This document shows positions 26,380-36,572 of a stretch of 42,899 nucleotides of DNA, one piece after another. Under the pieces are notes generated by a model that ran no database searches, had not been told where the DNA came from, and saw only the letters and a program-made list of their open reading frames with translations. Position 1 is the stretch's first letter; each line of letters opens with the position of its first letter. The DNA is from Prevotella sp. Its GTDB lineage: Bacteria > Bacteroidota > Bacteroidia > Bacteroidales > Bacteroidaceae. The stretch lies in assembly GCA_017476785.1 (NCBI GenBank), contig JAFUZD010000115.1, positions 1 to 42,899 on the forward strand, read 5' to 3'. The translations under genes were made by a program, and so were the position numbers.

Positions 26380-26413
26380 GAGGGCATCGTCACACGTTGG
26401 TGACGATGCCCTC
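26380..26413. terminator. Hairpin overlapping the end of udk
   Basis: A 14-bp perfect stem (26380-26393 and 26400-26413) with a 6-base loop encloses the udk stop codon. There is no T-run after it on either strand, so termination is possible but unproven. Confidence 0.4.
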
Positions 26414-27004
26414 GATGTATGTCTTGAGGATGTGAATGCCCGTCTTGTTCTCGTGCCCCCACGGGATGATGAGGTCGGCAAACTTCTTGGTGGGCTCGAT
26501 AAACTGGTCGTGCATCGGCTTGAGCACCTTCTCGTAGCGGTCGAGCACCATATCCACCGTGCGTCCGCGCTCCACCACGTCGCGCCGTATGTTGCGAATC
26601 AGGCGCACGTCATCGTCGGTATCGACGAAGATTTTCAGGTCCATCATATCGCGCAGCTTCTTGTAGTGCAGCGTCATAATGCCCTCGAGGATGATGACGG
26701 GCTTAGGCTCCACGTGGATGGTCTCGGGCAAGCGGTTGCTGAGCACGTACGAATAGGTGGGCTGCTCGATGGCCTCGCCGTTCTTGAGCCGCTTGATATG
26801 CTCGGTGAGCAGCTTCCAGTCGAAAGCGTCAGGATGGTCGAAGTTGATGGCGGCGCGCTCTTCGGGCGTCAGGCCCGTCGTGTCGTTATAGTACGAGTCG
26901 AGCGGGACGATGGCTGCGCAGTGGGGAGGCAGCGACTTGGCAATCTTTTTCACGACGGTGGTCTTGCCTGAACCTGTTCCGCCGGCGATTCCGATGATAG
27001 TCAT
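26390..27004 (-). CDS. udk: Uridine kinase
   Basis: A 204-residue cytoplasmic enzyme that phosphorylates uridine and cytidine to the monophosphates in pyrimidine salvage. The Walker A loop GGTGSGKTT is at about residues 8-16, followed by VPLDSYYNDTTGL, NFDHPDAFDWKLL, the PVIILEGIMTL segment (Walker B-like) and RNIRRDVVERGRT, all diagnostic of Udk. It lies 29 bases downstream of the glycosylase-like gene, which is 17 bases downstream of a secreted nuclease gene, so the three form one minus-strand operon. This is a meaningful pairing if the nuclease feeds nucleosides to the cell. Confidence 0.95.
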   Translation of the reverse strand: MTIIGIAGGTGSGKTTVVKKIAKSLPPHCAAIVPLDSYYNDTTGLTPEERAAINFDHPDAFDWKLLTEHIKRLKNGEAIEQPTYSYVLSNRLPETIHVEPKPVIILEGIMTLHYKKLRDMMDLKIFVDTDDDVRLIRNIRRDVVERGRTVDMVLDRYEKVLKPMHDQFIEPTKKFADLIIPWGHENKTGIHILKTYIEGIVTNV

Positions 27005-27033
27005 TTCTTAGTTTTTAGTTTATAGTTCAGAGT

Positions 27034-27618
27034 TTATAGCGGGCCGACGGTCTCGCTGAACATCGGGCGGTAGCAGTCGGCCTTACGCTCCACCCGCATT
27101 GGATAGGCCCGCGATGAGCTGGGCATCCGGTAGAGGCGCATCGGCCGGCCGTCGGTCAGCGTGAAGGCGATGCTGCTGCCCACCTTCGGCTGGGAGATGC
27201 CGTAATAGGCACAGAAGAGGTCGGTGGCTTTCTGGCCCGTGGTGACGGCACTGCGGCACTGCGGTATGCGGGCGAAGAGGGCATCGAGATCGGTGGGGGT
27301 CACCACTTCGAGGTCTTTGTCTGAGGCCGTGCCCGTGGTGCGGCAGACCGCCGTCGCCGTGTCGTAGAGGCCGATGCCGCGCTCGCGCAGCAGCTGTTCG
27401 ATAGCCTCGCGGCGGAAAGTCTTGCGGTCGGCATCCACCAAACGGTCTTTGTCGCCAAAGAAGCACAGGCCGAAGATGCGCCACATGTCATTGGTGAAGT
27501 TGGGATAGAAGAAATCCATCGACCAGCGCTTGCGGGCCGGAGGGAACGAGCCCAGCATCAGCAGGCGCGTTCCCTCCGGCAGGAAAGGTTGCAGCGGATG
27601 GTATTCGGTCTCGCCCAT
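27034..27618 (-). CDS. Uracil-DNA glycosylase superfamily protein
   Basis: About 194 residues. The active-site-like motif LLMLGSFPPARKRWSMDFFYPN near the start and TTGQKATDLF, then MPSSSRAYPM near the end, place it in the uracil-DNA glycosylase superfamily (Bacteroidota type). These are enzymes that remove uracil or hypoxanthine from DNA. There is no signal peptide, so it acts in the cytoplasm. Specificity is not certain: the first motif differs from the classical GQDPY. A longer frame to 27699 would overlap the upstream gene's end, so MGETEYH at 27618 is chosen. It sits between a secreted nuclease gene and uridine kinase. Confidence 0.75.
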   Translation of the reverse strand: MGETEYHPLQPFLPEGTRLLMLGSFPPARKRWSMDFFYPNFTNDMWRIFGLCFFGDKDRLVDADRKTFRREAIEQLLRERGIGLYDTATAVCRTTGTASDKDLEVVTPTDLDALFARIPQCRSAVTTGQKATDLFCAYYGISQPKVGSSIAFTLTDGRPMRLYRMPSSSRAYPMRVERKADCYRPMFSETVGPL

Positions 27619-27635
27619 AACTCCACCGCTGGCTA

Positions 27636-28685
27636 TTAATCTACCGATTTCATCAGATACACCAGCGTGGGCAGGTGGTCGCTGTATCCCTTCAGCCATA
27701 CGCCGCCGGCGTGGGTGCGCTTCATATTGCCCTTATACTTGCCCTCCTGCTGGAACAGATAGTTACGGCGGAAGATCTGGGGCTTCACGTAAGTAAGCGT
27801 CTTGTACTGCTTGGTGTCTTCCACGTCGAGCAGGCTGCGCGAGAGGATAATCTGGTCGAAGAGGTTCCACGCGCCATTGTACATCAGCGTTCCCGTGCCA
27901 CTGTCGTGAATCTTCCACCACGGGTTATAGAGTCCGTCGGGCTCTACCTCGGCCATATCGCGCTTGGCACCCAGTGCCACCGACATCGAGCGGTCGCGCG
28001 GGTCGTCGTTCATATCGCCCATAATGAGAATCTTCACGTTGGGGTCGTCGCGCAGCAACGAGTCTTTCACTGCGCGCAACTGGCTGCCGCCCTCCTCGCG
28101 ATAGAAGCTGCCGGTGAAGCGGCTGGGCAGGTGGTTGACGATGATGGTCACGTGCTCGCCGGCCATCGTGCCGCTGACGGTCAGGAATCCGCGGGTAGCG
28201 CGGTTGCTGTCCTGCGGCAGCTTATATATATAAGGTACGAGCTTCACGTTGCGCACGGTGAACTGCGCCGGGTCGTAGAGCAGTCCGCAGTCCACACCGC
28301 GACGGTCGGGTCCCTCAACGTGTACAAACTGGAAGTTGCGTGCCTTCAGCGGCTTCTGGTTGCACAGGTCCTGCAGGCAGCGGGCATTCTCCACCTCGCT
28401 CACACCGATGGCTGCACAGCCCCGAAGTCCCTTCAGGTCGGTGCCCATCTCGCCCAGCACGCGTGCCATATTGCGCAGCTTGACGGTATATTTCTTCTTG
28501 TCCCACTTGTTCTTGCCCGTCGGCAGGTATTCGTAGTCGTTCTTGCCTTCGTCGTGCTCATAGTCAAAAAGGTTCTCGAGATTGTAGAATCCCACGGCAT
28601 AGACGGCGAGCTTGCGCTCTTGTGCGTTGGCACTGGTGACTCCTACCAGAAGCATCAGTGCGATTAAGGATAGTAGTTTTTTCAT
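27636..28685 (-). CDS. Secreted endonuclease/exonuclease/phosphatase family protein
   Basis: A 349-residue exported enzyme with signal peptide MKKLLSLIALMLLVGVTSANA. The full EEP set of residues is visible in order: FYNLENLFD (Asn), GVSEVEN (metal-binding Glu), VNHLPSRF (Asn-His), LIMGDMNDDP (Asp-x-Asn-Asp) and YSDHLPTL (Ser-Asp-His). EEP enzymes cut phosphodiester bonds; secreted members include DNases, phosphodiesterases and sphingomyelinases. The neighbourhood (a TonB receptor and OB-fold lipoproteins divergent from it, another nuclease, uridine kinase in the same operon) favours nucleic acid. The family start MKKLLSL is chosen over an upstream in-frame codon that overlaps the promoter box. 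Confidence 0.88.
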   Translation of the reverse strand: MKKLLSLIALMLLVGVTSANAQERKLAVYAVGFYNLENLFDYEHDEGKNDYEYLPTGKNKWDKKKYTVKLRNMARVLGEMGTDLKGLRGCAAIGVSEVENARCLQDLCNQKPLKARNFQFVHVEGPDRRGVDCGLLYDPAQFTVRNVKLVPYIYKLPQDSNRATRGFLTVSGTMAGEHVTIIVNHLPSRFTGSFYREEGGSQLRAVKDSLLRDDPNVKILIMGDMNDDPRDRSMSVALGAKRDMAEVEPDGLYNPWWKIHDSGTGTLMYNGAWNLFDQIILSRSLLDVEDTKQYKTLTYVKPQIFRRNYLFQQEGKYKGNMKRTHAGGVWLKGYSDHLPTLVYLMKSVD

Positions 28686-28704
28686 AATGCAAATAAATCT
28701 ATGT

Positions 28705-28713
28705 GCAAATATA
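28705..28713 (-). promoter_or_regulatory. -7 promoter box of the EEP nuclease operon
   Basis: TATATTTGC on the minus strand, about 20 bases before ATG 28685. A second match, TACTTTTGC at 28756-28764 on the same strand, could be a tandem promoter. Confidence 0.55.
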
Positions 28714-28788
28714 GGCATTTCCCACAAGATTCTCGAATGATTTTAGAAAAAATACGCAAAAGTATGCCGTTTTTTAGATTTTATTTTG

Positions 28789-28797
28789 TTACTTTGC
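28789..28797 (+). promoter_or_regulatory. -7-like box of the TonB receptor operon
   Basis: TTACTTTGC, one mismatch from the consensus, about 37 bases before ATG 28834 and within the 148-base gap shared with the divergent nuclease operon. No stronger box is present. Confidence 0.4.
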
Positions 28798-28833
28798 ACC
28801 AAAGAATCTAAATATTAATTAATTTACCAACTT

Positions 28834-31440
28834 ATGCAGACAAAGCTGAAATTAGCTGTGATGGCTCTGTGCATCGCACCATCGGCCTTTGCCCAGACTG
28901 CTGACCAGAAGTCTGAGCAGAATGCCGTATCGAGCGAGCAGGTCTTCACTTTCACTGAAGCACAGCTGGGCGAAGACGACGATATGTCGCAGAATGTGAC
29001 CATCGTCTCGTCGAATCAGAACATCTATGCCTCGCAGGCAGGATATCTGTTCAGCCCCGCGCGCTTCCGCTACCGTGCTTTCAACCAAAAGTACAATGAG
29101 ATTTACATCAACGGCGCCGCAATGAACGACCTCGAGTCGGGGCAGTTCCGCTATTCGCTCGTCGGCGGTCTGAACCAGCAGACCCGCGGCGTGGAGAATG
29201 CATTGCCGTTTGAGAGCAACAACTTCGCAATGTCGGCGATGGGCGGTTCGAACAACTATGACTTCCGCCCCAGCCATCTGGCTACGGGACAGCGCATCAC
29301 GCTGAGCGGAGCCAACCGCAACTACACCCTGCGCGGGATGTACACCTATAACTCGGGCCTCAACGAAAACGGATGGGCCTTCTCGGCCAACCTTACCTAC
29401 CGCTGGGCCAGCCGCGGATATGTAGAGGGAACGTTCTACAATTCGCTGAGTTACTTCTTCGGTGTGGAGAAGCAGTTCAACGAGCAGCACTCGCTCTCGC
29501 TCGTCACGTGGGGCAACCCCACGGAGCGCGCATCGCAGGGTGCATCGACCGACGAGATGTACTGGCTGGCCAACGACCGCTACTACAATCCCTACTGGGG
29601 CTACCAGAACGGCAAGAAGCGCAACTCGCGCATCGTGACCGACTTTGCACCGACTGTGCTGATGACGTGGGACTGGAACATCAACGAACGGCTGAAACTG
29701 ACCACCAGCCTCACCGGACGCTACTCGATGTACAAAGGCACGCGCCTCAACTACAACGACACCGAGAAGCCGCAGGGAGACTACTGGAAGAATATGCCGT
29801 CGAGCTACTATGACGTATGGTACACCGACGACACGAACGGTCGCACCGACGAGGGCTATACCAACTTCTTCCGTGCCCGCGACTATATGATGAGCAGCAA
29901 GCACAACCGCCAGATTAACTGGGACCGGCTGTACTATGCCAACGGCCTCGCCAATCAGGAGGGACGCGACGCTATGTACTACGTGCAGGCCAAGCACATC
30001 GACAACCTGAACCTGACGCTGGCCTCGAGCCTGAAAGCCGACCTGACCAAGCACTCGCTGCTCAACCTCGGCATCCAGCTGGCCACCAATAAGGGAATGC
30101 ACTACAACACGATGGAGGACTTGCTGGGAGCTACCTCGTTCCGCAACATCAATACCTATGCGCTGGGCAACTATGCCATCACCGACCAGCGCGTCTACTA
30201 CGACCTGAACGCCGACCCCAACCAGCAGGTAAAGGAGGGCGACCGATTTGCCTACGACTACAACATCCTCGTAGACCGTGCACAGGCGTGGACCTCATAT
30301 TCCTATGCTAAGGGAGCCGTCAACACCTTCGTGGCCGGTCGCATCGGTGCAGTGAGCATCCAGCGCGACGGCAAGATGCGCAATGGTATGGCAGCCGACT
30401 TCTCGTACGGCAAGAGCGGCACGGCACGCTTCCTCGACGGAGGCGGCAAAGCAGGACTGGCTGCCAAGCTCGGTGCTGGCAACAGCATCTCGCTGGGCGT
30501 GGGCTACGAGCTGAAGGCTCCGCAGGCACAGGCCGCATTCGTGTCGCCTGAAATCAACAACGACTTCGTGGACAACCTGAAGAACGAGAAAGTGTTCAGC
30601 GCAGAACTGGGCTATGCCTTTGAGACTTCGTGGCTGAAGGCCAACATCAACGGCTACTACAGCTACCTGACCGACGTGACCGAGTGGCAGAACTTCTACG
30701 ACGACGATGCACGCTCATTCACCTATGTCTCAATGACTGGCATCAAGAAAGCCTACTACGGACTGGAGTGGGGCTTGAACTTCAAGCTGAACTCGGCATT
30801 CAACATCAAAGCGCTCGGCACCATCAGCGAGGCCAAGAACACCAACAACTCGCGCGTACGTTATATGAATTCTACCGATGCCGACTACTACGACGACATC
30901 GTATATAATAAGAATATGCGCGAGAGCGGCACGCCGTTGTCCATCTACAGCCTCGTGCTGAGCTACCACTCGGGCGGCTGGTTCATCGACCTCAACGGCA
31001 ACTACTACGACCGCATCTACCTCTCCTACTCGCCCAGCTATCGCTACGGCTCCACGCTGGAGAACCGTCAGGCATCGTGGGAGAAGAACGGTAAGGTGGC
31101 TGGCGAGCAGGTCTATGAGACCATCGAAGGCACCAGCGACAAGCGCATCCTGCCCAGCGCCATCGAACAGGCAAAGGGTAAGGGCGGCTTTATGCTCGAC
31201 CTCTCTATCGGCCGCAGCATCTATCTGAAGAAGGGCTCGCTCTCGGTCAACCTGATGATTACCAATCTGCTGAACAACCAGAAGATGGTGACCGGCGGAT
31301 ACGAGCAGAGCCGAAGCAACTACTCGGTGAACGACGACGGTACCATCGGCAATGCCCGCACGTACAAGTTTGACCGCAACCCGATGAAGTATTACGCCTA
31401 TGGAATCAACGGTATGCTGAACATTGCTTATAAATTCTAA
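28834..31440 (+). CDS. TonB-dependent outer-membrane receptor, short form
   Basis: An 868-residue protein with signal peptide MQTKLKLAVMALCIAPSAFA. The plug region is recognisable by YNEIYINGAAMNDLESGQFR and is followed by a long series of aromatic alternating strands ending NGMLNIAYKF, the C-terminal Phe typical of outer-membrane barrels. There is no carboxypeptidase-regulatory-like N-terminal domain and no SusD partner gene follows, so it is not a SusC/D pair. Two lipoproteins with OB-fold-like domains follow at once (gaps of 15 and 51 bases) in the same direction, making them likely surface partners of this transporter. The substrate is inferred to be nucleic-acid derived, from context only. 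Confidence 0.85.
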   Translation: MQTKLKLAVMALCIAPSAFAQTADQKSEQNAVSSEQVFTFTEAQLGEDDDMSQNVTIVSSNQNIYASQAGYLFSPARFRYRAFNQKYNEIYINGAAMNDLESGQFRYSLVGGLNQQTRGVENALPFESNNFAMSAMGGSNNYDFRPSHLATGQRITLSGANRNYTLRGMYTYNSGLNENGWAFSANLTYRWASRGYVEGTFYNSLSYFFGVEKQFNEQHSLSLVTWGNPTERASQGASTDEMYWLANDRYYNPYWGYQNGKKRNSRIVTDFAPTVLMTWDWNINERLKLTTSLTGRYSMYKGTRLNYNDTEKPQGDYWKNMPSSYYDVWYTDDTNGRTDEGYTNFFRARDYMMSSKHNRQINWDRLYYANGLANQEGRDAMYYVQAKHIDNLNLTLASSLKADLTKHSLLNLGIQLATNKGMHYNTMEDLLGATSFRNINTYALGNYAITDQRVYYDLNADPNQQVKEGDRFAYDYNILVDRAQAWTSYSYAKGAVNTFVAGRIGAVSIQRDGKMRNGMAADFSYGKSGTARFLDGGGKAGLAAKLGAGNSISLGVGYELKAPQAQAAFVSPEINNDFVDNLKNEKVFSAELGYAFETSWLKANINGYYSYLTDVTEWQNFYDDDARSFTYVSMTGIKKAYYGLEWGLNFKLNSAFNIKALGTISEAKNTNNSRVRYMNSTDADYYDDIVYNKNMRESGTPLSIYSLVLSYHSGGWFIDLNGNYYDRIYLSYSPSYRYGSTLENRQASWEKNGKVAGEQVYETIEGTSDKRILPSAIEQAKGKGGFMLDLSIGRSIYLKKGSLSVNLMITNLLNNQKMVTGGYEQSRSNYSVNDDGTIGNARTYKFDRNPMKYYAYGINGMLNIAYKF

Positions 31441-31455
31441 AATACACTGACAACA

Positions 31456-32310
31456 ATGAAGACAAGACATTATATCCTTATGGCACTGACTGCACTGCTC
31501 GCAGCATCGTGTATGGACGGCGACTGGGACGCTCCTGAGTCAGTGAAAGGCCAAGCGGCTTACGGCAACCAGAATATACAGGAAACCAACGTCGTCACCA
31601 TTGCCGACCTGAAGAAGCAGTTCGCCAGCGAAATCAGCGGCGGAACAGCCGGAGCCGTGACGACCCCGACGCAAGTGAAGGGCGTGGTGCTGGGCAATGA
31701 CGCCGGCGGCAATCTGTACAGCGAAATCTACATTGCCGACGAGACGGGTGCCATCCAAGTGCGCATCTCGCAGAGCGGACTCTACGGCTATCTGCCCGTG
31801 GGCCAGACTGTGCTCATCGAGCTCAACGGCCTCTACGTGGGCGGCTACGGCAAGCAGCCGCAGATAGGCAATCTCTACAATGGCGGCACCGGACGTATGA
31901 CCCGCTATGAGTGGTACAACCACTTCAAGCTGGTAGGAGCCGAGGACGGCATCCTGAAGACGGTGACACCCATCGAAGTGACCGACATCAGCCAGCTGTC
32001 GCTCGACAACGACGTGTGCAAGCTCGTCACGCTGAAAGGGGTCGAAATTGTAGAAGCCAACGGCACGATGACCTACGCACCCGAGAACCGCAAGCAGTCG
32101 AGCACGCAGAACTATGTGCACAACACGTTCCGGATAAACGGTAAGGCCGTCAGCAGCAGCACGCTCGTGCTCCGCACCAGCACGTTTGCCGACTTTGCTC
32201 CCTCTGTAATGCCCACCGGCAAACTCGATGTCACCGGCATCGCCAGCCGCTTCAACAACACGTGGCAGATTTATCTGCGCACCGAGGCCGACGTGAAGGC
32301 AGCAGAATAA
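31456..32310 (+). CDS. DUF5689 lipoprotein (OB-fold-like)
   Basis: A 284-residue lipoprotein: MKTRHYILMALTALLAASCM with lipobox Cys at residue 19. The mature part starts with an acidic stretch and then VVTIADLKKQFA, KGVVLGNDAGGNLYSEIYIA, DETGAIQVRISQSGLYGY and IELNGLYVGGYGKQPQIG, which together match DUF5689, a Bacteroidota family with an OB-like fold. A second strand-rich domain (KLVTLKGVEIVEANG, STLVLRTSTFADFA, LDVTGIASRFNNTWQIYLR) completes it. OB folds often bind nucleic acid or oligosaccharide. It is encoded directly after the TonB receptor, so it is probably its surface-exposed binding partner. Confidence 0.82.
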   Translation: MKTRHYILMALTALLAASCMDGDWDAPESVKGQAAYGNQNIQETNVVTIADLKKQFASEISGGTAGAVTTPTQVKGVVLGNDAGGNLYSEIYIADETGAIQVRISQSGLYGYLPVGQTVLIELNGLYVGGYGKQPQIGNLYNGGTGRMTRYEWYNHFKLVGAEDGILKTVTPIEVTDISQLSLDNDVCKLVTLKGVEIVEANGTMTYAPENRKQSSTQNYVHNTFRINGKAVSSSTLVLRTSTFADFAPSVMPTGKLDVTGIASRFNNTWQIYLRTEADVKAAE

Positions 32311-32361
32311 AAAAAGATTCGAATATAACTGATACATACTGAAATAAAAACAAAAAACGAT

Positions 32362-34170
32362 ATGAAAAGAATAACAAATCTATTGATTGCGATGACCGTA
32401 ATGGTCTTCACATTCACCAGTTGCGAGGATGTTCCCTCTCCCTTCGGCCACGTCAGTCTGCCCGGAGCCGACGATGACATCTCGGCCATCGAGCCCAGCG
32501 GTACCGGCACCGAAGCTGATCCCTACAACGTACAGGCCATCATCGACATCGTTAAGGCACTTGATGCCGACGTAGATACCGAGCAGACCTACTATGTGAA
32601 GGGTATCGTGACCAACATTCCCGAGGGTAGCAATGGTATTTCCACCAGTTATAACAATGCTACGTTCTACATCTCCGACGACGCTTCGGGCTCCAACAGT
32701 TTCTACGTCTTCCGCTGTAAGGGACTTGGCGGCGGCGACATCACCGACGAGAATTTCCTAAAAGTGGGCGACGAAGTCGTGATTTGCAGCACCACGTGGG
32801 TCAACTATAAGGGCAACACCCCCGAGACCAAGCAGGGCGCAGCCTACATCGTATCCATCAACGGCAGCACAGAGGCTGGCGGCGGTGGTGAGACTCCGTC
32901 GGGCGCAGCAACAGGTAGCGGCACCGAGGCCGACCCATTCAACGTACAGGCCATCATCGACAAAGTGAGTGCACTTGACGCCGACGCTGCACTGACCGAG
33001 ACCTACTACGTGAAAGGTATCGTAACCAACATTCCCGAGGGTAACTATGGTATTTCGGCCAGCTACAACAATGCCTCGTTCTACATCTCTGACGACGCTT
33101 CGGGCTCCAACAGTTTCTACGTCTTCCGCTGTAAGGGACTTGGCGGCGGCGACATCACCGACGAGAATTTCCTAAAAGTGGGCGACGAGGTGGTCATCTG
33201 TAGCACCTCGTGGGTCAACTATAAGGGCAACACCCCTGAGACTTCGACGGGCGCAGCCTACATCGTATCTATCAACAGTAATGGTGGCGGCGGCAATGAC
33301 CAGCCCAGCACGGGTAATGCAGGAACGCTGGAGAAGCCGTTCACACCCGCAGAGGCCAATGCCTTTGTTTCGGCTCTTGCTGCAGACCAGAATTCTGCTG
33401 AGGACTATTATATCAAAGGTAAAATCATCGATATTACGGATAATAATCAGTTTGGTACGCAATACGGCAACTGTACTTTCTACATCTCGGCCGACGGCAC
33501 AGACAGCGGTGAGAAATTCTATGTGTTCCGCACCCTCTACTTGGGCAACGTGAAATACACTGACGACTCTTGGGCCAAGCCGAAAGCTGGCGACGAAGTG
33601 ATTATCTGTGGCAAAGTGGTAAATTATCGTGGCAACACGCCTGAGACGGTACAAAACCAGAGCTACATCTACTCTCTCAACGGTCAGACATCAGCCAATA
33701 GCGGTGGCAATGGCGGTGGCAACGACCAGCCCAGTACGGGCGGAAGCATAAGCGTTAGCGCTACAGATATGGGATTCACAGCACAAGCAGTCGCTACTTC
33801 GTACACGATGACCGACGGTACAATTCTTACGTTTGGGAAAGGCGGAGGCAGCAATGATCCCAAATATTATGACGGCAACTATGCTTCCGTGCGTATGTAT
33901 GCAAAGAACACGTTGACGATTACTTCAAGTAAAACCATTACGAAAGTTGTCATCACAACTACCGAGGGCAATGGATCGACAAAGTACAATGGCAATGATA
34001 CTGCTTATGCAGAAGGAGGTTCGACTGTCAATATCAAGAAAAACAGCGATACCGAAGTGGAGTTCTCCGGACTTAGCGCCAAAACCGTCAATATTGTAAA
34101 CGAGCACTCTACTGCGAGTGGTGGCACCCAGCTACGTGTGAAAGCTATCGAGATTACTTACGCACAATAA
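32362..34170 (+). CDS. Lipoprotein with three OB-fold-like repeats and a C-terminal beta domain
   Basis: A 602-residue lipoprotein with Cys21 in FTSC. Three repeats follow at roughly residues 47-175, 185-315 and 325-450, each opening with a (G/A)xxADP(Y/F)NVQAIID-type or related start, then YYVKGIVTNIPEG, NNA(T/S)FYISDDASG and GDEVVICSTxWVNYKGNTPET, the strand order of an OB-like nucleic-acid-binding fold. Gly/Ser/Asn linkers separate them. The C-terminal domain (about 465-602; DGTILTFGKGGGSNDPKYYD, TITKVVITTTEGNG) is of a type seen on secreted Bacteroidota nucleases and binding proteins. Repeats 1 and 2 share a 98-bp identical stretch. Probably a multivalent surface binder serving the TonB receptor. 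Confidence 0.75.
   Translation: MKRITNLLIAMTVMVFTFTSCEDVPSPFGHVSLPGADDDISAIEPSGTGTEADPYNVQAIIDIVKALDADVDTEQTYYVKGIVTNIPEGSNGISTSYNNATFYISDDASGSNSFYVFRCKGLGGGDITDENFLKVGDEVVICSTTWVNYKGNTPETKQGAAYIVSINGSTEAGGGGETPSGAATGSGTEADPFNVQAIIDKVSALDADAALTETYYVKGIVTNIPEGNYGISASYNNASFYISDDASGSNSFYVFRCKGLGGGDITDENFLKVGDEVVICSTSWVNYKGNTPETSTGAAYIVSINSNGGGGNDQPSTGNAGTLEKPFTPAEANAFVSALAADQNSAEDYYIKGKIIDITDNNQFGTQYGNCTFYISADGTDSGEKFYVFRTLYLGNVKYTDDSWAKPKAGDEVIICGKVVNYRGNTPETVQNQSYIYSLNGQTSANSGGNGGGNDQPSTGGSISVSATDMGFTAQAVATSYTMTDGTILTFGKGGGSNDPKYYDGNYASVRMYAKNTLTITSSKTITKVVITTTEGNGSTKYNGNDTAYAEGGSTVNIKKNSDTEVEFSGLSAKTVNIVNEHSTASGGTQLRVKAIEITYAQ
32677..32774 (+). repeat. 98-bp exact repeat, copy 1
   Basis: Identical to 33091-33188, 414 bases (138 codons) downstream, inside the OB-repeat lipoprotein gene. 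It covers the codons from DDASGSNSFYVF through NFLKVGDE. The flanking sequences have diverged, so this looks like recent copying or gene conversion between repeats. Confidence 0.9.
33091..33188 (+). repeat. 98-bp exact repeat, copy 2
   Basis: Second copy of 32677-32774, in the same reading frame within the second OB-like domain. Confidence 0.9.
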
Positions 34171-34197
34171 TCCATCACATAAGCAAGCAAGCCTATC

Positions 34198-34233
34198 AAG
34201 AGCAGCTCCTCGATGCGGGAGCTGCTCTTTTTT
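34198..34233 (+). terminator. Terminator of the TonB receptor operon
   Basis: AAGAGCAGCTCC (34198-34209) pairs with GGAGCTGCTCTT (34218-34229) around an 8-base loop and is followed by a run of six T. This is a textbook intrinsic terminator, 28 bases after the stop of the OB-repeat gene. Confidence 0.85.
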
Positions 34234-34295
34234 CGATTTCCCCCACCCTCGCCAATAATCCCCGAAAGCCGCAAGCCATCAGGAGTGACAGAAGC

Positions 34296-34412
34296 GATGG
34301 GGCTGATGGGACTAATGGGGCCGATAGGGCTTATAAGACTTATAGGACTAATGAGACTTATGAGTCCTATGAGACTTATAGGCCCTATAAGTCCTATAAG
34401 ACCTATAAAAAA
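34296..34412. repeat. 9-bp degenerate tandem repeat array, about 13 units
   Basis: Consecutive 9-base units such as GATGGGACT, GATAGGGCT, TATAAGACT, TATAGGACT, AATGAGACT, TATGAGTCC and TATAAGTCC run without a break. The unit is close to its own reverse complement (TATAGGACT against AGTCCTATA), so both strands look alike and many hairpins are possible. It lies just after an operon terminator and before the four-helix-bundle gene; reading it as protein gives only a GLMGLM/RLIGLM repeat, which I do not believe is coded. Confidence 0.8.
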
Positions 34413-34466
34413 GCTAAAAAAACGTAAAATCTGCTCTACAAATTTGGTCTACTGCCTCATTGTGCG

Positions 34467-34474
34467 TACTTTTG
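34467..34474 (+). promoter_or_regulatory. -7 promoter box of the four-helix-bundle gene
   Basis: TACTTTTG, matching TAnnTTTG, 24 bases before ATG 34499. Confidence 0.5.
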
Positions 34475-34498
34475 ATTCAAATTCAACCGATGCTTGCT

Positions 34499-35056
34499 AT
34501 GAAAAAGGAAAACAATGACTTTCTGCCACAAAAGGGTAACTACCGAGGATTGTTGGTCTACCAAAAGGCAGAATGCATATATGACATCACCTACTATTTC
34601 GCCCATCAATATCTGGAGAAAAGCGATCGCACGATAGACCAGATGGTACAGGCAGCACGCTCGGGTAAGCAAAACATTGCAGAGGGCAGCGCGGCATCGA
34701 GCACTTCACGGGAGACGGAGCTTAAACTGATGAATGTAGCTAAGGCCAGCTTGCAAGAATTACTGGTCGACTACGAGGACTTTTTGCGCGTCAGAGGGCT
34801 GTGTCAGTGGAGCAGCAGCGATCCACGCTATCAACAGACGCGCAATGTATGCAAGCAGCATAACGACTCGGCTTTTTATCGTGAGGCCATAGCCCAGCGC
34901 ACGGCAGAGACCACTGCCAACATCGCCATCACACTAATTCACCAGACCGACACGATGATGCGCCGCCTGATAGAACGCCTGAAGGCAGATTTTCTAAAGC
35001 AGGGTGGCATCCGCGAAGAGATGTCAAGAGCCCGCCGCGAACTGCGAGGGTGGTAG
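34499..35056 (+). CDS. Four-helix-bundle protein (S23/IVP-like)
   Basis: A 185-residue cytoplasmic helical protein of the 'four helix bundle'/23S rRNA intervening-sequence protein type. Typical features are YRGLLVYQKAECIYDITYYF at the start, RTIDQMVQAARSGKQNIAEG, and ELKLMNVAKASLQELLVDYE. The family is common in Bacteroidota, often without known function; members were first seen inside rRNA intervening sequences. No rRNA is present here. The C-terminal basic extension (RREELSRARRELRGW-like end) may contact RNA. ATG 34499 is preferred over ATG 34490 and an upstream alternative start because of the family's MKKE-type start. Confidence 0.82.
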   Translation: MKKENNDFLPQKGNYRGLLVYQKAECIYDITYYFAHQYLEKSDRTIDQMVQAARSGKQNIAEGSAASSTSRETELKLMNVAKASLQELLVDYEDFLRVRGLCQWSSSDPRYQQTRNVCKQHNDSAFYREAIAQRTAETTANIAITLIHQTDTMMRRLIERLKADFLKQGGIREEMSRARRELRGW

Positions 35057-35119
35057 CCAGAGCAATGGGGAAGTAAGAAGAAAATCGGGGAATTATTTGG
35101 CGGGTTCGGAAATTCTTCG

Positions 35120-35128
35120 TACCTTTGC
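35120..35128 (+). promoter_or_regulatory. -7 promoter box of rpmE2
   Basis: TACCTTTGC, giving a leader of about 50 bases before ATG 35184. Confidence 0.6.
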
Positions 35129-35183
35129 ATCCGCTTTTATGCGCAAATAACAAATAACTATTTATATTTTAGAGAATTAAACA

Positions 35184-35438
35184 ATGAAAACAGGTATTCA
35201 TCCAGAAAACTATCGCCCCGTCGTATTTAAGGATATGTCCAACGGCGATATGTTCCTCTCGCGTTCTACCGCCAAGACCAATGACACGGTAGAATTCGAA
35301 GGCGAAACTTACCCGGTGGTAAAAATCGAAATTTCAAGCACCTCTCACCCCTTCTATACGGGTAAGAGCAAGCTGGTCGACACAGCTGGTCGCGTAGACA
35401 AGTTTATGAGCCGCTACGGTAAGGCTGCGAAGAAATAA
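35184..35438 (+). CDS. rpmE2: 50S ribosomal protein L31 type B
   Basis: An 84-residue ribosomal protein: [20 protein letters not shown], then [20 protein letters not shown] and [16 protein letters not shown]. It contains no cysteine, so it is the zinc-independent (type B) form, which in other bacteria replaces the zinc form under zinc limitation or is the only copy. It has its own promoter and is followed by a terminator. Confidence 0.96.
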
Positions 35439-35463
35439 CGATATTTCACCGAAGAAAAGATTC

Positions 35464-35512
35464 AAAAGGCGCACCCGCGGTAGTTGCATATGCCACGGAG
35501 AGCGCCTTTTTT
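35464..35512 (+). terminator. Terminator after rpmE2
   Basis: AAAAGGCGC (35464-35472) pairs with GCGCCTTTT (35502-35510), the inner CCGCGG/CCACGG extend the stem imperfectly, and a T-run follows. Confidence 0.7.
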
Positions 35513-35558
35513 AGTAACCAACCGCACAGAAACCCCAAACAAAAGAAAGCCTATAGTT

Positions 35559-36572
35559 ATGAAACGAATCCACCAACTACTTCTCATCGCAGCAGCGGTC
35601 TTGACGATGACAGCCTGCGGCGGCGACGACGAGCAGATTATCCACGGTGCCAAGCCCATTGACAACAGTGGCACCAACAGCAATAGCAACGGAGGCAGCA
35701 ACGGACAGAGCGACAGCAATGGACAGAGCGACAGCGACGAGGGCGGGACTACCGACCTCAGTACCTACACCAGCCGCTATGAGTTCCCGGCACTGCGGGG
35801 CGGAAAGAGCGAAGTCATCGTCCACACCACGGGCGACGACGAGATGACCTATGCCATCGAGTGGGATCACGAGCTGCGCGCCCAGCGCTGGACCTGCTTC
35901 GAGATTTACGCCAGCAACCGCATCAAGAAATGGAGCCGCGGCGATTGGAAAGGCGCTACGTGGAACGGACGCACGTGGACGGGCGACCCCTTCCAGCACG
36001 ACCCGCTGGTGCCGTCGAGCGAGCAGCCGCCGGTGTCGGGTGAGTTCAGCGGCAGCTATTACCCCGGCGGCGGGCGCAACGACTACTACCAGCGCGGCCA
36101 TATCTGCGCCTCGGAAGACCGTGTCTATTCGCAGGACGCCAACGGACAGACATTCTATATGACCAATATGATGCCGCAGGTAGGCAACTTCAACGGCAAG
36201 CTGTGGGCCAAGCTCGAGACGCAGGTGCGCACGTGGGGCGCACTGGCCGACACGCTCTACGTCTGCAAAGGCGGCACCATCGACCGCGACGACCAGATTC
36301 TGGACCGCACCAAGAGCGGCTTCATCGTGCCGCGCTACTTCTGGATGGCCCTGCTCAGCAAGAAAGGCGACACGCTGAAGGCCATCGGCTTCTGGATGGA
36401 GCATCTGAACGAAGACCACCAGAGCGACCCGCTGAGCGGCTACGTGGTCAGCATCGACGAACTGGAACGGCTCACGGGGCTCGACTTCTTCTGCAACCTG
36501 TCAGATGCCCTCGAGTCGTCGCTCGAATCGGCCTCGAAGAATCAGATGGTCAGCGAGTGGAATCTCTATTAA
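35559..36572 (+). CDS. DNA/RNA non-specific endonuclease lipoprotein (NUC1 family)
   Basis: A 337-residue lipoprotein: MKRIHQLLLIAAAVLTMTAC with lipobox Cys20, then an acidic linker of Asn/Ser/Gly/Asp repeats (about 36-65). The NucA/Serratia-type nuclease domain has the catalytic His181 in YYQRGHICASEDR and the metal-binding Asn in MTNMMPQVGNFN, followed by WAKLETQVRTW and SGYVVSIDELERLTGLDFF. Enzymes of this family cut single- and double-stranded DNA and RNA without sequence preference. The lipid anchor should place it on the outer membrane, possibly facing outside. It lies 1.4 kb after the TonB receptor operon. A longer frame from 35484 overlaps the L31 terminator and is rejected. Confidence 0.92.
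   Translation: MKRIHQLLLIAAAVLTMTACGGDDEQIIHGAKPIDNSGTNSNSNGGSNGQSDSNGQSDSDEGGTTDLSTYTSRYEFPALRGGKSEVIVHTTGDDEMTYAIEWDHELRAQRWTCFEIYASNRIKKWSRGDWKGATWNGRTWTGDPFQHDPLVPSSEQPPVSGEFSGSYYPGGGRNDYYQRGHICASEDRVYSQDANGQTFYMTNMMPQVGNFNGKLWAKLETQVRTWGALADTLYVCKGGTIDRDDQILDRTKSGFIVPRYFWMALLSKKGDTLKAIGFWMEHLNEDHQSDPLSGYVVSIDELERLTGLDFFCNLSDALESSLESASKNQMVSEWNLY

Follow-up and report, generated by a model that had tools for sequence, protein, structure and literature searches.

The window is a stretch of 42,899 nucleotides from a Prevotella genome (contig JAFUZD010000115.1, assembly GCA_017476785.1), and the genes considered here lie between its positions 26390 and 36572. They form two divergent units, one on the minus strand encoding an EEP-family enzyme, a UDG-like protein and the uridine kinase udk, the other on the plus strand encoding a TonB-type receptor, a DUF5689 lipoprotein and a lipoprotein with OB-like repeats. 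Downstream of the OB gene follow, in order, a terminator-like hairpin, a four-helix-bundle gene, the L31 gene and the gene of a NUC1 lipoprotein. Every gene named in the original prediction, which had been made from the letters of this stretch, was confirmed in its place. That prediction saw a surface system for capture, digestion and uptake of nucleic acid, working like a polysaccharide-utilisation locus. We consider it somewhat probable that the genes encode this organism's version of a DNA importer of class Bacteroidia, which would work at the outer membrane, be energised by TonB and serve transformation. The features are as follows.

26390..27004, minus strand: udk, uridine kinase, a genus-level neighbour (equivalog NF004018, 289 bits)
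27034..27699, minus strand: UDG-like protein, tentative, with an alternative start at 27618 (TIGR04274 37.8 bits, cut-off 80)
27636..28685, minus strand: exported EEP-family enzyme, core partner (PF19580, E 7e-92)
28834..31440, plus strand: TonB-type outer-membrane receptor, putative counterpart of RA0C_RS04915 (homology to the receptor of locus L204, clade test, Plug matches of relatives)
31456..32310, plus strand: DUF5689 lipoprotein, putative counterpart of RA0C_RS04920 (PF18942, E 2e-65)
32362..34170, plus strand: lipoprotein, three OB-like repeats followed by a C-terminal stretch (repeat analysis; third gene throughout the genus)
34198..34229, plus strand: terminator-like hairpin ending the receptor operon (13 pairs, then a T run)
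34460..35056, plus strand: four-helix-bundle protein, outside the system (TIGR04258 and TIGR02436 above cut-off; own promoter-like match)
35184..35438, plus strand: ribosomal protein L31 type B, outside the system (NF002462, 128.8 bits; own promoter-like match)
35559..36572, plus strand: NUC1 lipoprotein nuclease, probable functional partner on a separate transcript (PF01223, E 5e-42; likely start 35559)

The signal peptide of the EEP enzyme points to an internal ATG as its start, giving 27636-28685(-), and residues N49, E111, E113, D238, N240, D350 and H351 are invariant in 10/10 aligned homologues. We take these seven positions to be the catalytic ones, and the enzyme agrees with its description as a secreted one with complete active-site residues. 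The window receptor alone gave no Pfam match at E up to 0.1; in the receptor alignment A4, at the same threshold, the TonB Plug was matched in 11 of 14 members and the TonB barrel in 3 of 14. Neither a SusD family member nor a glycan enzyme was found among the nine window proteins scanned, so the receptor stands, as predicted, without SusD. The DUF5689, OB and NUC1 proteins all carry lipobox-like motifs, which bears out the lipid anchors predicted for them, and acidic residues after the lipobox cysteine suggest that surface export may take place. The intergenic gaps are 15 bp between the receptor and DUF5689 genes and 51 bp between the DUF5689 and OB genes.

The sequence search for solved relatives came back empty: for the EEP enzyme and the receptor the limit was E 0.01, for the DUF5689 and OB proteins E 1. 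Class-wide, the profile matches to solved structures fall mostly on CarboxypepD-like and choice-of-anchor-like domains, which are accessory N- and C-terminal parts. CarboxypepD_reg occurs in 13 of the 14 members of A4, the exception being the window receptor, and DUF5017 in only 12 of the 30 members of alignment A3 (E up to 0.01); both were treated as accessory domains rather than as defining ones. A DUF5689 match was also seen in the Bacillus subtilis control genome, perhaps in the nuclease YhcR.

The conserved core and the Riemerella transformation locus

Of 40 genomes searched, 21 (that of the window among them) gave a DUF5689 match, as did 10 of the 13 same-genus genomes at least 90% complete. 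Each of the 20 matching genomes besides the window's contributed one DUF5689 locus, 14 of them from the genus and 6 from the order. In the genus loci (where DUF5689, at 14/14, was the selection criterion) the EEP gene is divergent from the receptor and adjoins it in 14/14, an OB-type third gene follows in 14/14 (one weak, 82 bits), and udk, UDG and L31 are found in 14/14, 11/14 and 12/14, respectively. The order loci have the receptor in 5/6 (L049 is cut by a contig end) and EEP in 3/6. One same-genus genome, G008 (90% complete), gave neither a DUF5689 nor a ComEC match, possibly through joint loss or assembly gaps.

Farther afield, the L040 receptor search of 148 genomes of the phylum gave 40 at E up to 1e-30, counting that of the window; six candidates per genome were scored, so that misses in this search are soft. 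In the 21 high-scoring genomes besides the window's, DUF5689 adjoins the receptor in 20. In the remaining one, G056, the DUF5689 gene (C9:183303-183968; L097, L121) lies on a different contig from the receptor. Among the 20 of these 21 class loci that were annotated (L119 was left out), DUF5689 follows the receptor in 19 and EEP is divergent in 14. Genomes with a receptor 99-100% identical to Chryseobacterium records belong to the same class as the window's genome, but to another order. A scan over named genomes gave 571 relatives; the 80 best were examined, a set that the Chryseobacterium-type query biased to Flavobacteriia. There DUF5689 comes after the receptor in 80/80 (its longest reading frame overlaps the receptor end in three) and EEP is divergent from the receptor in 78/80, being absent in L196 and L202. 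NUC1, udk, UDG, L31, OB and ComEC genes occur in 0/80 of the fetched Flavobacteriia stretches, 62 of which span at least 9.5 kb on both sides. UDG, udk and L31 were accordingly rejected as core parts, since they are neighbours at genus level only, and so was comEC as a neighbour of the receptor in Flavobacteriia at large. The core across the class is EEP divergent from the receptor and DUF5689 after the receptor. Being common in the genus and in Flavobacteriia, it is no peculiarity of this strain, a point that the original prediction had left for checking.

Homologues of the receptor and the DUF5689 protein came up in Riemerella anatipestifer, where natural transformation was screened with transposon mutants (PMC8459023). 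As that paper describes its follow-up, markerless deletion of either RA0C_RS04915 or RA0C_RS04920 brought transformation below detection, whereas deletions of other surface genes from the same screen, e.g. RA0C_RS09840, had no effect. The product of RA0C_RS04915 is presented there as an outer membrane protein with a carboxypeptidase-regulatory-like domain and that of RA0C_RS04920 as a DUF5689 and DUF5017 protein, the two genes forming a predicted operon; its authors propose binding of DNA by RS04920 and its conduction by RS04915, and they report receptor homologues only in Flavobacteriaceae (PMC8459023). Our literature search on DUF5689 or RA0C_RS04915, with bioRxiv and most subscription journals outside its scope, found this paper only.

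Six small genomes, of one genus in a Chryseobacterium-like family, have receptors 63-68% identical to the Chryseobacterium-type query. In these Riemerella-like genomes the distance from ComEC to the receptor is about 4.4 kb in three and 12 kb in one, and in two the genes lie on other contigs. At locus L204 recA is followed, in this order, by a dinB-like gene, three genes of succinate-dehydrogenase type, comEC, a gene of 145 aa, a carboxyltransferase gene, EEP, receptor and DUF5689; recA, comEC, carboxyltransferase, EEP and DUF5689 were assigned by Pfam, and the dinB and succinate dehydrogenase names were read from protein starts. The gene count between recA, comEC, receptor and DUF5689 equals the steps between RA0C_RS04870, 04895, 04915 and 04920. 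The domains agree with the table of PMC8459023 as well, with PF13620 in the receptor and a DUF5017 match (23.6 bits, cut-off 28.8) beside DUF5689; the DUF5689 protein also matches the NCBIfam 'M949_1556 family lipoprotein' (599 bits, cut-off 475) and has a choice-of-anchor-J domain, as that paper states. From gene order and domains, L204 would thus be the locus of the Riemerella pair, and its EEP gene the counterpart of RA0C_RS04910, because the gene count matches the locus-tag steps. Just downstream of the receptor-DUF5689 operon, cas2 and cas1 (Pfam) are located at L204:18491-19718; at a similar place in L205 (18211-19501) lies a reading frame whose start looks like cas9, a fragment with no Pfam match. 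DNA import genes and CRISPR adaptation genes hence adjoin in a Riemerella-like genome.

In single comparisons, the window proteins match their L204 equivalents at 26% identity over 808 aa for the receptor (E 2e-75), 31% for DUF5689 (E 2e-31) and 31% for EEP (E 1e-53), and the matches span most of the protein length. In a FastTree tree of receptors the window gene falls among the copies linked to DUF5689, that of L204 included, and eleven paralogues stand apart. The window receptor scores 2.3-3.9 times higher on the DUF5689-linked copy than on the paralogue in 9/9 loci matching both, and in L159 it matches only the DUF5689-linked copy. The two loci thus have in common a homologous receptor, immediately followed on its strand by a DUF5689 lipoprotein, and a divergent EEP gene upstream. 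They differ in that the window receptor is without CarboxypepD_reg, the window DUF5689 protein is without DUF5017 and choice-of-anchor-J, and the window has NUC1, udk and a separate OB-repeat lipoprotein in addition. The receptor-DUF5689 pair is already published for Flavobacteriaceae; to judge from our literature search, what is new here is EEP as a partner, the layout across the class and the occurrence in the window's order, together with the OB-repeat and NUC1 additions.

The OB-repeat lipoprotein, the NUC1 nuclease and the extent of the unit

How far does the unit reach beyond its three core genes? The OB lipoprotein has repeats of about 125 residues each at residues 47-172, 185-306 and 320-445. 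Repeats 1 and 2 (window 32500-32877 and 32914-33279) are identical at 312 of 360 bases, which suggests a recent duplication, and the repeat number differs among relatives. The three repeats and the lipid anchor of the original prediction stood firm. The OB-fold label has a weak basis (Pfam tRNA_anti-codon at E 0.008, under cut-off, and a DUF6359 profile match at 78% probability) and is plausible rather than proven. A relationship of the OB repeats to DUF5689 by profile was not supported (7% probability). A related module was seen elsewhere in the window's genome (L122:7302-10562, G000:C28), in a lipoprotein-like protein with one OB-type domain, 36% identical to the window's third repeat, and a CXXX cysteine-rich tail. 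Next to it are a radical SAM maturase of the CXXX-repeat type (TIGR04115, 633 bits) and a second CXXX repeat maturase (TIGR04119, 227 bits), which marks L122, by its profile matches, as a modified-peptide system employing the same OB-type module.

The NUC1 protein can be aligned to the nuclease 2o3b, RGH motif included, so that the lipid-anchored nuclease of the original prediction was recovered. Doubt about its membership had been expressed there with good reason. The hairpin after the OB gene and promoter-consensus matches preceding the four-helix-bundle gene (34443) and L31 (35096) place NUC1 probably outside the receptor operon, and its candidacy as an operon member was rejected on these grounds. 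NUC1 occurs in 12/14 genus loci, and in L052, from another family, it stands directly upstream of EEP, receptor and DUF5689 with all four genes on one strand. It is more than a chance neighbour, probably a functional partner on a separate transcript.

The unit might be narrower than proposed and consist of receptor, DUF5689 and EEP only, with OB, NUC1, udk, UDG and L31 a meaningless synteny of the genus. This reading, which overlaps the others, appears to us rather doubtful. It draws on the absence of these five genes from the 80 Flavobacteriia stretches and on the hairpin and promoter matches that split NUC1 off; the arrangement in L052 speaks against it, and so does the shuffling of domains. 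In L048 an OB repeat is fused behind DUF5689 (iE 7e-26), in L039 a single chain reads DUF5689–DUF6359–DUF5017, and in L034 DUF6359 sits on the third gene, by which the membership of the OB gene is supported.

A proposed DNA importer and its rivals

In SusCD-type polysaccharide-utilisation loci, a TonB-type receptor, surface lipoproteins and degrading enzymes are encoded in neighbouring units. The window shares this layout; its constant partner, however, is an EEP-family enzyme, SusD and glycan enzymes not being found among the nine proteins scanned. In competence based on a type IV pilus and PilQ, DNA is delivered to a ComEA-like helix-hairpin-helix (HHH) protein and ComEC. The proposed importer would deliver to the same two proteins, but its outer-membrane step would be made by a TonB-type receptor, and the secretin PF00263 was found in 0/10 genomes, the window's included (controls were positive in 6/14; the window's assembly is 89% complete). 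The window's genome encodes ComEC, DprA and an HHH protein (three matches) whose N-terminus is hydrophobic (G000:C35, C84, C107). In Riemerella, according to PMC8383284, tonBA and tonBB mutants transform less, and a tbfA mutant shows no such drop. It is because ComEC, DprA and HHH are present, a secretin was not found and Riemerella TonB mutants transform less that a TonB-driven importer is proposed.

The DUF5689 lipoprotein would bind extracellular DNA at the surface, with the OB-repeat lipoprotein assisting it in the window's genus. Nicking, trimming or the making of ends would be the work of the EEP enzyme and perhaps also of NUC1, and the TonB-energised receptor would pass the DNA into the periplasm. 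From there the ComEA-like HHH protein and ComEC might take one strand into the cytoplasm, where DprA and RecA could recombine it; degraded material could feed salvage via udk. We infer from homology and layout that the genes may have the same function in the window's genus as in Riemerella; conduction of DNA by the receptor itself, its binding by DUF5689 and the OB repeats, and the roles given to both nucleases are likewise conjectural. The broader idea, that Bacteroidia, also in the window's order, import DNA through a TonB-dependent receptor with DUF5689 and EEP instead of a type IV pilus and secretin, is held tentatively, as somewhat less than an even prospect, and would reach well past the Flavobacteriaceae of the published pair.

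Such a route would matter, as pilus-free passage of DNA through the outer membrane is called an open question in a 2024 paper on Porphyromonas gingivalis (PMC11532111). As stated there, competence of that species needs a ComEA-like HHH protein and ComEC, the same inner step as in the proposed importer, and the import of DNA across its outer membrane is unclear. A word search of the text of a 2025 review of natural transformation (PMC12236230) returned none of Riemerella, Bacteroid-, Flavobacter-, Porphyromonas or TonB. The present locus puts a name to three core genes, counterparts of the two found essential for transformation in Riemerella and of an enzyme gene beside them, and opens the question to direct experiment in another order. 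Should the importer prove real, it would account for one way in which genes are transferred, and genetic work on species that have been difficult to engineer could benefit.

A number of observations weigh against this proposal. The functional evidence for receptor and DUF5689 comes from Riemerella only and not from the window's order; the identities to the L204 proteins are low (26-31%), and the window proteins are without CarboxypepD_reg and DUF5017, which their Riemerella counterparts have. In the pages of PMC8459023 on these genes, RA0C_RS04910 is named only as an upstream gene whose transcription was checked, the EEP gene being untouched by the follow-up of the screen, and Flavobacterium johnsoniae is said to have all homologues, yet not to transform under the conditions tested. 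The tonBB effect was ascribed to iron by the authors of PMC8383284. Three of the 13 same-genus genomes at least 90% complete gave no DUF5689 match. The receptor is present in 240/246 genomes of one family, which would fit a general nutrient function too.

ComEC was found in 29/30 genomes mostly having the module, but also in 22/23 genomes taken as lacking the receptor-DUF5689 pair, and HHH_3 proteins were found in 32/32 genomes searched. The 'lacking' set comprises 11 genomes without a DUF5689 match and 12 without a receptor match (six candidates per genome scored), and is imperfect, as weak DUF5689 matches (41-65 bits) were seen in 5 of the 12. That the pair occurs together with ComEC and HHH was rejected as evidence, both being equally frequent where the pair is missing, and the ComEC, HHH and DprA of the window's genome are therefore uninformative. 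Conversely, G025 (L051; 99% complete) has EEP, receptor and DUF5689 and gave no ComEC match, and in G031 (L052) and G154 (L102), both with the module, the ComEC frames are interrupted by stops. The module can thus exist without intact ComEC, and in these three genomes ComEC-dependent transformation looks impossible, to judge from their reading frames.

The genes could instead form a nutritional locus, in which the nucleases would cut DNA or RNA, the receptor would import fragments or nucleosides and udk would salvage uridine, transformation being a by-product. Feeding is a serious rival, although we regard it as somewhat unlikely. In view of the ComEC findings in G025, G031 and G154, the equal frequency of ComEC and HHH where the pair is missing, the missing DUF5689 matches and F. 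johnsoniae, a nutritional role is conceivable. The wide occurrence of the receptor in one family, the presence of udk in every genus locus and two apparently exported nucleases with conserved active-site positions all suit it; the NUC1 protein may itself serve feeding, because a non-specific surface nuclease could equally destroy DNA. Secreted nucleases reclaiming extracellular DNA are described for a biofilm in PMC11458576. On the other side, the only genetics found on these genes is the loss of transformation described in PMC8459023, udk and UDG occur in 0/80 Flavobacteriia loci, and SusD is wanting among the nine proteins. For these genes the literature search yielded nothing on growth with nucleic acid or on regulation by it. 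Both uses, transformation and feeding, may be real. As regards the original prediction, the Riemerella deletion phenotypes and the class-wide linkage sustain surface capture and import of nucleic acid, and its picture of feeding in the manner of a polysaccharide-utilisation locus was not shown.

A role of the pair in the import of an unrelated ligand or in the upkeep of the envelope, with the loss of transformation indirect, is improbable: the tonBB mutation also affects iron uptake (PMC8383284) and no solved relative reveals the type of ligand, but both markerless deletions led to complete loss where other surface-gene deletions described in PMC8459023 did not, and the constant partner of the pair is an EEP-family enzyme in 78/80 Flavobacteriia loci.

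Small neighbours and control signals

The prediction had placed a UDG-family protein and uridine kinase in one operon with the EEP enzyme. The positions and the udk assignment hold; the UDG family label is tentative, because the sole profile match of this protein, TIGR04274, is under cut-off and there is no Pfam match. A terminator scan of the region gave 4 terminator-like sites against 9.2 in shuffled sequences, so that their count is not enriched. The Bacteroidetes promoter consensus has 8 matches in the window against 0.43 expected, with no exact match 5' of the receptor or EEP gene. Low-complexity near-repeats (CTTATAGGACTAATGAGA-like) occupy window 34280-34410, between the terminator-like hairpin and the four-helix-bundle gene.

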